NCBI GenBank assembly: GCA_026401035.1
Contig: JAPLNR010000060.1
Span: forward strand, 124,001 to 188,000
Length of the DNA: 64,000 bases
DNA from: Planctomycetia bacterium
Lineage (GTDB): Bacteria; Planctomycetota; Planctomycetia; Pirellulales; UBA1268
Reading direction: 5' to 3'
The position numbers and the translations under genes are program-made. How positions within the stretch are numbered: position 1 is the first letter of the stretch; every line of letters begins with the position of its first letter. Positions 12,121 through 58,007 of this stretch are shown here, piece after piece. Below the pieces are notes generated by a model that was not told where the DNA came from, made no database searches, and saw nothing but the letters and a program-made list of their open reading frames with translations.

Positions 12121-12783
12121 TCATGCCGCGTTCAGGCAGAGCCGACGATGGATCGCTTCGATGTCGTCTGGAACGAGTGGTCGGCCCGGGCTGCCCTCGG
12201 CGAGCAAACCCGCCAAGGCAGCGAGCCGGGTGACCAGCGCGGGAATGCCGCCGGCAATCTCATGGATTGTGCGGGCCACTTCGTCACGTTCGCGGATCGA
12301 GCCTGCCGCCAACAGCCTGCCGGCGACCAGCATTCGCGATTCAGCGAGCGTGAACGGGGGCAGCGTGGCCCGCAGCGACACGGCCTGTTCGAGACGGCTG
12401 TCACGGGCTACGAGCGAGAGCAGGCGGCCCTCTCCGGCCAGGGCCACGGCCCCGGCGGGCTGCCTCTGAAAATAGCGGTCGATCAATTGTCCGAGTGCGT
12501 TCTCCCGCGCCAGGTGGGCGTCGTCGATCAGAAGCATTTCCGGCACCGCGGCGGGCGGCTCTGCCGCGAGCATTCGCTCCACCGCAGCGATGCCGAATCT
12601 GGCAGGCACAATTGTCGACGGCTGCCGCGACCGGACGATGGTCTCCAGGACGAGCGTCTTGCCGACGCCGGCCGGCCCGCAGAGCAGCGCGACGGTTCCC
12701 GGCCGTTCCAGGCAGTAGGCCACGCGGGCCGCGGCGGCCTGCTGGGCAAGCGTCAGTCGTTGTTCGGCGACGGGGTCAGGCAT
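12121..12783 (-). CDS. ExeA-like AAA+ ATPase
   Basis: A 220-residue AAA+ ATPase with Walker A GPAGVGKT (36-43) and Walker B EMLLIDDAHLA (about 81-91), the DDAH form being typical of the ExeA/GspA and the exopolysaccharide-locus (XrtA-associated) secretion ATPases. Unlike GspA it ends soon after the AAA lid and has no membrane helix or peptidoglycan-binding domain. It overlaps the upstream ParA-like gene by 8 bp, so the two are translated together. By analogy with polysaccharide-export loci, a role in assembly or regulation of an envelope machine is plausible, but no export or polymerisation gene is adjacent. Confidence 0.75.
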   Translation of the reverse strand: MPDPVAEQRLTLAQQAAAARVAYCLERPGTVALLCGPAGVGKTLVLETIVRSRQPSTIVPARFGIAAVERMLAAEPPAAVPEMLLIDDAHLARENALGQLIDRYFQRQPAGAVALAGEGRLLSLVARDSRLEQAVSLRATLPPFTLAESRMLVAGRLLAAGSIRERDEVARTIHEIAGGIPALVTRLAALAGLLAEGSPGRPLVPDDIEAIHRRLCLNAA

Positions 12784-13507
12784 CGGGTGGCTCCACCGAG
12801 TCGTCGGGGCTGGACGCCATCTCGAACGTGATCACTTCGCCGAGCACCCGCAGGCCGCAGGCGGTGAGTGTCTCGCCCTGGGCCGGAACGGCAGCCCGGT
12901 CGGCCCGTCGCACGAGAATCACCGCATCGCAGCCGAACGCCAGTTGCGCCACCTGTCGCTGCCGGATGGGTCCGGGCGGAAACCAGATTCCGGCATCGAC
13001 GATGACGATGTCGGCGCGGTCGGCATGGTGTTCGCGGGCTTTGAGATCGCGGCATTGCAGCGGTGGCTTGCTCACGCAGGCTACCCGCCGCCCACGGCCT
13101 TGGAGCGTGAGGAAGGCACCACGGGCGACCGTCGTAACGCCTGCGCCCGGCTGACCGGCGGTGATCGCAAACACCCGGCAACCAACCGCCTGAGCGGCCT
13201 CGATCTGCTCCGCAATCTGGATCCATTGATCCGGCACCGATTCGAGCAACTTGGAAAGCAACGGGTCGCCGAACTGCATCGCGACGGCCTGTATCGCGAC
13301 GGCCTGTGGATCGACCGGCGGCGGGGCGACCGTGGCTGCTGCGGCAGGCAGCGCCGCGGTCTGGTCGGACACCGCCGGGCCGACGGTCGCCCGCACCCGA
13401 TCGATGGTCTGACGCACCGGGTCGGCGAAATCCAGTGCGGTACGACCGAGAAATACCCGATCGATCAGGTCGAGCGTGTTGTGGACTGGAGTGGTCTCGA
13501 TGTTCAT
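12776..13507 (-). CDS. ParA/BY-kinase-like protein lacking the P-loop lysine
   Basis: A 243-residue protein whose C-terminal half looks like the MinD/ParA/CpsD nucleotide-binding fold: AITAGQPGAGVTTVARGAFL (about residue 125) is the place of the Walker A motif and IVIVDAGIWFPPGP that of Walker A'. The invariant P-loop lysine (GxGKT/S) is replaced by valine (GAGVTT). The N-terminal ~110 residues are Ala/Pro/Val-rich and probably unstructured. There is no C-terminal tyrosine cluster of the kind seen in bacterial tyrosine kinases. The ATG at 13507 was chosen because the upstream open frame is antisense-like. It is co-directional with the membrane gene 14 nt upstream and overlaps the ExeA-like gene. 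Confidence 0.65.
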   Translation of the reverse strand: MNIETTPVHNTLDLIDRVFLGRTALDFADPVRQTIDRVRATVGPAVSDQTAALPAAAATVAPPPVDPQAVAIQAVAMQFGDPLLSKLLESVPDQWIQIAEQIEAAQAVGCRVFAITAGQPGAGVTTVARGAFLTLQGRGRRVACVSKPPLQCRDLKAREHHADRADIVIVDAGIWFPPGPIRQRQVAQLAFGCDAVILVRRADRAAVPAQGETLTACGLRVLGEVITFEMASSPDDSVEPPDA

Positions 13508-13521
13508 GGGTGTCGCACCGT

Positions 13522-14001
13522 TCAAGGCTGCACGCTCGCCGGCAAGGGGGCGCCGGACGACAGTTCGCGCGCCAGACGCTCCGGTCGCAGCTGCGCCCGG
13601 GTTTCGAGGCTCGCCTGCAAAACCCGGTCGGCGTCCGCCCGCTGACGGTCGTTCCACCAGGCGGCGGTCCAGGTCACGGCCGCCAGCAGGACAAGGGAAA
13701 CAACCGATCGAAGCGGAAATCGCACGCTCGCGATGGCCGGCGGGCGGTGCGGTAGCGGTCCGGCTGAAACGGTCGGCGCACCAAGCTCGGCCGGGATGAT
13801 GGGCTCGTCCAGAATAACGTGCGCAGCCGCAATGACAGGCGCAGCCGCAATGACAGGCTCAGCCGGGATGTCGAGTTCAGCCGGGACGACGCGAATGACG
13901 GGTATGACAGACGTTCCAGGGATGAGGTGTTCAGGACTTTCCGGTGGCGCCGTCACCGATTCGGTGGCCTCGAGTGCGGGGAGGCGGGCGATGACCTTCA
14001 T
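13522..14001 (-). CDS. Pro/Ala-rich single-span membrane protein
   Basis: A 159-residue protein I cannot assign to a named family. The first ~90 residues are rich in Pro, Ala, Val and Ile with a repeated PVIAAA unit. One hydrophobic helix follows (SVVSLVLLAAVTWTAAWW, about 100-117), then a charged C-terminal tail, probably periplasmic (RADADRVLQASLETRAQL). No signal peptide precedes it, so the Pro-rich part should be cytoplasmic. It is the first clear gene of the block with the ParA-like and ExeA-like proteins; in tyrosine-autokinase loci this position is held by a membrane adaptor, and this might be a reduced version. That is inference from order only. Confidence 0.6.
   Translation of the reverse strand: MKVIARLPALEATESVTAPPESPEHLIPGTSVIPVIRVVPAELDIPAEPVIAAAPVIAAAHVILDEPIIPAELGAPTVSAGPLPHRPPAIASVRFPLRSVVSLVLLAAVTWTAAWWNDRQRADADRVLQASLETRAQLRPERLARELSSGAPLPASVQP
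13823..13858. repeat. Two perfect 18-bp tandem repeats inside a coding region
   Basis: GCAGCCGCAATGACAGGC occurs twice head to tail, followed by degenerate partial copies to about 13910. On the minus strand it encodes the repeated PVIAAA segment of the membrane protein, so it is a coding microrepeat that could vary in copy number. Confidence 0.8.

Positions 14002-14318: not shown

Positions 14319-18017
<3,699 letters not shown>

Positions 18018-57932: not shown

Positions 57933-58007
<75 letters not shown>

Follow-up and report, generated by a model that had tools for sequence, protein, structure and literature searches.

Within the window (the whole stretch of 64,000 nucleotides that was analysed, from a planctomycete of the order Pirellulales), a compact operon of three genes runs on the minus strand from position 14001 to 12121 and encodes, in this order, a membrane protein, a CpsD-like protein and an ExeA-like AAA protein. 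Its features are the following:

13522 to 14001, minus strand: small membrane protein of 159 residues, first gene of the operon, with no Pfam or NCBIfam match
13972 to 13992, minus strand: IARLPAL, the conserved N-terminal peptide of the membrane protein, predicted to be cytoplasmic and recognised as a motif in relatives
13654 to 13710, minus strand: predicted transmembrane segment of the membrane protein (Kyte-Doolittle score of 1.67 over 19 residues)
12776 to 13507, minus strand: putative BY pseudokinase (CpsD-like), 243 residues from the conserved ATG, assigned by P-loop, profile comparison and AlphaFold model
13130 to 13156, minus strand: lysine-less P-loop GQPGAGVTT of the middle protein, with Val124 (13136 to 13138) replacing lysine
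12968 to 12997, minus strand: Walker-B-like DAGIWFPPGP of the middle protein, with Asp171 present in 54 of 56 family members
12121 to 12783, minus strand: ExeA/TIGR03015-like AAA protein of 220 residues with a reduced N-terminus, assigned by motifs, Pfam and model
12655 to 12678, minus strand: Walker A GPAGVGKT of the AAA protein, intact in the window, its lysine lost in 20 of 54 family members
12514 to 12525, minus strand: Walker B DDAH of the AAA protein, with Asp88; glutamate is found in 32 of 43 relatives outside the family

The first two genes are separated by 14 nucleotides and the last two overlap by 8; the middle reading frame starts mechanically at 13657, and the conserved ATG places its start at 13507. 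No export or co-polymerase (Wzz) genes adjoin the operon in the window, as the first-pass annotation had already remarked of export genes, and no exosortase or polysaccharide genes lie at this locus, the host exosortase being on another contig. Around the operon, Rfam models applied at the gathering threshold gave no regulatory RNA. The divergent neighbour on the plus strand (14319 to 18017) is presumably metH. Elsewhere in the window, two adjacent genes on the minus strand (1 to 1657) look to us like those of the protein-arginine kinase McsB and of McsA, and a tRNA-Arg (acg) lies at 57933 to 58006, minus strand.

Relatives were read in the window's own family (f1), in 22 loci from other families of the order (L093-L102 and L153-L164) and in two families that belong to the same class but to other orders, f21 and f22, which we take, as a guess, for Gemmatales and Planctomycetales, respectively; gene calls in these relatives came from a simple codon-usage script. 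Of 36 f1 genomes (own genome included), 33 have the AAA protein and 33 have the middle protein, and among 55 non-redundant f1 loci a same-strand upstream open reading frame (ORF) with a predicted transmembrane segment was seen in 50. The order membrane protein, middle protein, AAA protein recurs in f21 and in the order's other families, which bears out the earlier proposal that the trio is a module. A scan of named genomes gave 43 loci, all metagenome-assembled and nearly all planctomycete by title. With paralogues counted in, the AAA-protein profile matched 133 of the 148 genomes of the class at E ≤ 1e-20. In 10 close pairs, hand-picked and some with a common member, dN/dS was below 1 in 20 of 20 comparisons for the two genes (range 0.17-0.67): 0.21-0.67 for the pseudokinase and 0.17-0.40 for the AAA protein. 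Eleven columns are invariant across 44 f1 sequences. By these computations the operon is conserved across many genomes and shaped by purifying selection, and we regard it as a module that at least two planctomycete orders have maintained. Searches of open-access papers turned up none that treats this operon in planctomycetes, which does not prove that there are none.

Several variants of the arrangement were seen. The f22 loci (L133-L147) carry the membrane protein and the AAA gene, with no pseudokinase gene between or beside them. In six of seven f21 loci a related, apparently secreted protein is encoded upstream of the module on the same strand (L148:3351-4904, L150:8725-10311, L151:2618-4600, L152, L165 and L166:747-2285); it is about 515 residues long in the three that were read, and the two that were scanned gave no Pfam match. 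In other families of the class (L170, L172 and L288) a CpsD-like gene comes after an AAA gene, and the lysine column of the CpsD-like protein holds Glu in L170 and Ala in L172. The gene metH is divergent from the operon in 29 of 30 f1 loci (the contig of the remaining one stops short of that position) and in 12 of the 22 loci from the other families of the order. It was considered as a functional partner and rejected: since it is not labelled beside the genes in seven f21 and 14 f22 loci, its adjacency is taken as inherited synteny.

The middle protein of the window has no Pfam or NCBIfam match, and PDB sequence searches with the window proteins returned nothing useful. Its identity was approached through relatives and through structure. 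The f1 profile matched a profile of 10 proteins from other families of the order with a probability of 99.4, and in all six of these that were scanned the best NCBIfam match was TIGR03018 or TIGR01007, under the cut-off. The AlphaFold model has a mean pLDDT of 78.5, with blocks in residues 81-230 at pLDDT 85-97, save 151-160. All seven Foldseek matches at E ≤ 0.001 were BY-kinases (best 1.2e-4, BceF), with TM-scores below 0.5. VIA-align placed CapA1B1 at the top (Z 12.4, rmsd 3.1, 140 aligned residues); BY-kinases fill its first 19 entries (Z 12.4-10.4), and SRP GTPases begin at Z 10.0; rows less than 1 apart in Z count as tied. The fold is thus that of BY-kinases, as read from a predicted model and not a solved structure. 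Of the original label, ParA/CpsD-like, the kinase-like half stands, while ParA in general fits less well than BY-kinases in both fold searches.

What sets this protein apart from active kinases is the loss of catalytic residues. Val124 occupies the place of the P-loop lysine, so that GAGVTT replaces the expected GxGK[ST], and the whole protein is free of tyrosine, hence without a C-terminal tyrosine cluster, just as the first-pass annotation had reported. Walker A' (VDAD.R.P) is also missing (VACVSKPPLQCR); it is present in many relatives from other families, and the f1 form lacks it together with about 60 residues beyond. None of the non-redundant middle proteins counted has the P-loop lysine. 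At its position the 56 from f1 show Arg in 43, Cys in 7, Val and Ala in 2 each, and Ser and Pro in 1 each; the 21 from the order's other families show Cys in 8, Arg in 7, Val and Ala in 2 each, and Ser and Thr in 1 each (one of the 22 is cut at the P-loop and was left out); and the 7 from f21 all show Arg. The locus L169 was excluded, its middle-protein match being an unrelated ParA gene elsewhere in the locus. A local mutation, which intact P-loops in the homologues would have indicated, is refuted by these counts: the loss is conserved in the lineage.

As a control, TIGR01007-matched kinases of the own and related genomes were inspected, and 30 of 31 have the lysine, the exception being Thr; these 31 are L173 and L174 from the own genome plus 29 loci, one per genome, from 58 matches, with at least four under the TIGR01007 cut-off and one in a 333-residue frame. 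In another reading, 30 loci gave 23 proteins with lysine, three module members with Cys and four long-frame kinases with Thr or Val. The latter are tyrosine kinases from outside the class (L268, L273, L274 and L281). Lysine loss in the phylum is not unique to the module. Because of its predicted fold and its residue loss, the middle protein is called a BY pseudokinase; the Arg found in 43 of 56 f1 P-loops might still permit nucleotide binding.

In the membrane protein of the window two hydrophobic stretches pass the threshold, one of them, residues 51-69, being rich in Ala, Val and Pro (score 1.69). The second stretch corresponds to the transmembrane segment of the relatives, and a single span is inferred on that ground. 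Basic residues before and after the segment number 44 versus 21, 46 versus 9 and 23 versus 4 in other families, and this excess ahead of the segment suggests that the N-terminus lies inside. One of the 11 called f22 membrane proteins has no transmembrane segment. Two short motifs, whose patterns were written after the sequences were viewed, were scored in the loci with a usable upstream gene call (16 of 22 in the other families of the order, 6 of 7 in f21 and 11 of 15 in f22). The N-terminal motif occurs in 38 of 50 f1 ORFs, a count without a shuffle control and with an ORF choice that favoured the motif; a similar motif is carried by 15 of the 16 proteins of the order's other families (shuffled expectation 2.5), by 5 of 6 from f21 (0.3) and by 0 of 11 from f22 (0.5), whose loci have no middle gene. 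Presence of the N-terminal motif therefore tracks presence of the pseudokinase gene. A C-terminal motif is found in 11 of 11 f22 proteins and in 8 of 16 from other families of the order, has a different form in f21, and appears in just one of 31 f1 loci, in a doubtful frame.

The AAA protein of the window matches AAA_22 of Pfam at 27.6 bits against a cut-off of 27, and TIGR03015 at 23.2 bits against a curated cut-off of 324.5. Its model (pLDDT 93.1) has an AAA fold, with Z 16.3 to TnsC and 16.0 to MuB, and so the protein combines an AAA fold with Walker A, as expected of the ExeA type. A TIGR03015 search of the own genome missed the AAA gene of the window and returned two others, on contigs 66 and 49. 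Outside f1, the Walker A lysine is present in all 22, 7 and 14 AAA relatives from the other families of the order, f21 and f22, respectively, L144 of f22 having no called AAA gene. Within f1 it is kept in 34 of 54 proteins, with Val in 11 and Thr in 9, and parsimony on a midpoint-rooted tree counts four changes. Another residue stands in for the Walker B Glu in 53 of the 54 f1 proteins, and none of the 54 has both this Glu and the lysine. We had considered the loss of Glu as proof of inactivity and dropped it: outside f1 it is also replaced in 11 of 43 lysine-keeping relatives (3 of 22, 2 of 7 and 6 of 14), by Asp in 10 and by Asn in one. DnaA-type proteins use Asp at this position. The case for degeneration accordingly rests on the Walker A lysine, and from its pattern in the sequences the AAA partner appears to be degenerating within f1, in several lineages, the window copy keeping its lysine.

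Outside the class, two loci place the homologous kinase and AAA pair among polysaccharide genes. L286 has an OPX exporter gene (Poly_export), a Wzz-like gene, a kinase with GEGKTT and then an ExeA-like AAA gene; L287 has a Wzz-like gene, an ExeA-like AAA gene, a kinase with AEGKTT and then a Wzy ligase gene (Wzy_C). The Wzz matches, at 20.8 and 24.6 bits, are just under the Pfam cut-off of 25.5. Both kinases stand alone and have the lysine, and the Wzz-like gene of L286 holds the position that the small membrane protein has in the window. This putative ancestral arrangement is known from these two loci only. A PMT-like gene lies downstream of the module in 8 of 22 loci of the other families of the order, with none within six genes in 30 f1 loci. 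These PMT-like neighbours form two sequence groups of four; of five scanned, one is over the Pfam cut-off, three are under it and one (L098) gave no match. The own genome has two TIGR01007-type kinases with the lysine, on contig 69, with an OPX gene and a YGYGYG tail on the kinase, and on contig 77, with an exosortase; both kinases are fused to a long N-terminal part in a single frame. With no export gene beside the operon and the host kinase loci self-equipped, the link to polysaccharide is indirect.

The identity of the parts is well supported; the function is a proposal. Slightly better than even, in our estimate, are the chances that this operon, derived from an exopolysaccharide-export switch, encodes an inner-membrane scaffold in which a BY pseudokinase works with the small membrane protein and the ExeA/TIGR03015-type AAA protein. 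From L286 and L287, and from the PMT-like gene in 8 of 22 loci, we infer that the process served is a step of envelope glycan assembly or export; the membrane protein, the polysaccharide neighbours in two loci and the PMT-like gene are all compatible with the putative new envelope role that the first-pass annotation had suggested. The operon would descend from an export switch of the L286 and L287 kind, change presumably having run in that direction, and the small membrane protein may have taken over the place of the co-polymerase. Its cytoplasmic N-terminal peptide would dock on the pseudokinase, for which we count the presence of the motif with, and its absence without, the pseudokinase gene; the pseudokinase would in turn dock on the AAA protein. 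Such a complex might hold or gate envelope glycan assembly or export by binding, without phosphorylation, and in f1 the AAA partner would be drifting, in several lineages, towards an ATP-independent part.

A bolder reading, which we hold possible but not likely, is that of an envelope machine of at least two orders in which both NTP-binding proteins are, or are becoming, pseudoenzymes. The kinase lysine would have been lost before the orders split and the f1 AAA motor later, in several lineages, leaving a nucleotide-free assembly that serves a planctomycete-specific process unrelated to exopolysaccharide export.

An assembly factor of the GspA/GspB kind is unlikely. The AAA and membrane proteins would here act as ExeA and ExeB, aiding insertion of an outer-membrane channel, with the pseudokinase as an added adaptor. 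The AAA protein is indeed ExeA-like, the membrane protein of the relatives has a GspB-like layout (one transmembrane segment, a Pro-rich tail and a short C-terminal motif), the f22 loci carry both genes without the pseudokinase gene, and the host has one secretin gene. That secretin lies on another contig, however, Pfam and NCBIfam detect no GspB or peptidoglycan-binding domain in the window proteins, and the C-terminal motif is nearly absent from f1 (one of 31 loci, doubtful frame). Outside the class, moreover, the pair is found among polysaccharide genes in the two loci seen. The available text of one study describes GspB proteins as highly variable, the HR domain being missing in some (PMC9239104).

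Still less probable is a polysaccharide regulator that acts in trans on the Wzz co-polymerases of the host, as EcpK does on EpsV. The module shares with EcpK the fold and the kind of loss, and two polysaccharide loci of the host contain a kinase, but both of these kinases are fused and keep the lysine, so that the host co-polymerases, unlike EpsV, do have a kinase domain, and the operon brings its own membrane protein. We give little credence to a positioning ATPase of the ParA/MinD type with a variant P-loop. Members from other families of the order match MinD and ParA models, all six scanned match the KGGVGR-variant model NF047398 under its cut-off, and the best Pfam match of one member is the model of the cellulose-synthesis protein BcsQ; yet a tyrosine-kinase model is the best NCBIfam match in the same six, the fold search ranks BY-kinases first, and replacements other than Arg (Cys, Val, Ala, Ser, Thr and Pro) are common. 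Least credible of all is a decaying remnant of an export locus heading for loss, for although the f1 proteins are shorter than their counterparts in other families and motifs have gone from them, it is contradicted by retention in 33 of 36 f1 genomes, by dN/dS below 1 throughout (20 of 20) and by the 11 invariant columns in 44 sequences.

The scaffold operon that we favour offers comparable states: a kinase with lysine among polysaccharide genes, a pseudokinase with a lysine-keeping AAA protein, and a pseudokinase with a lysine-less one. The question of how a P-loop switch turns into a scaffold thereby becomes testable on a single gene set.

Among known systems, the XrtA/PEP-CTERM locus has the same two families side by side, an autokinase (TIGR03018) and an ATPase (TIGR03015), a likeness that had been suggested from the window sequence and that is upheld by the same-order relatives: their best matches are 6.5e-15 and 55 bits to TIGR03018 (cut-off 230.65), and 7.4e-55 and 186.3 bits to TIGR03015 (cut-off 324.5). 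The module differs in scoring under these curated cut-offs, in lacking the lysine and in having no exosortase or polysaccharide genes at the window. GspA/GspB (ExeA/ExeB) of type II secretion likewise pairs an ExeA-like AAA protein with a small membrane protein; the window shows no detected peptidoglycan-binding or HR domain and has an extra pseudokinase. CapB1 of Staphylococcus aureus has a BY-kinase fold for which no in vitro activity was found, according to the available text, but it retains its active-site residues and is encoded in a capsule operon (PMC3795738).

The closest parallels are EcpK of Myxococcus xanthus and HfsB of Caulobacter crescentus, which the available text of PMC12004946 describes as stand-alone proteins of BY-kinase fold with no functional Walker A and no tyrosine tail, maintained in their lineages, and proposes as co-polymerase scaffolds that work without phosphorylation. 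Their partners are PCP-2 proteins of polysaccharide pathways (PMC12004946, same text), whereas the pseudokinase of the window has as neighbours a Pfam-less small membrane protein and an AAA protein of the ExeA type, and no polysaccharide genes adjoin them there. EcpK is reported there to lack any Walker motif (PMC12004946), whereas the module has kept the shape of the P-loop, mostly GxG[RC][ST]T, and lost its lysine. A BY-kinase fold has thus been kept without the lysine in at least two planctomycete orders, among neighbours different from those of EcpK and HfsB.
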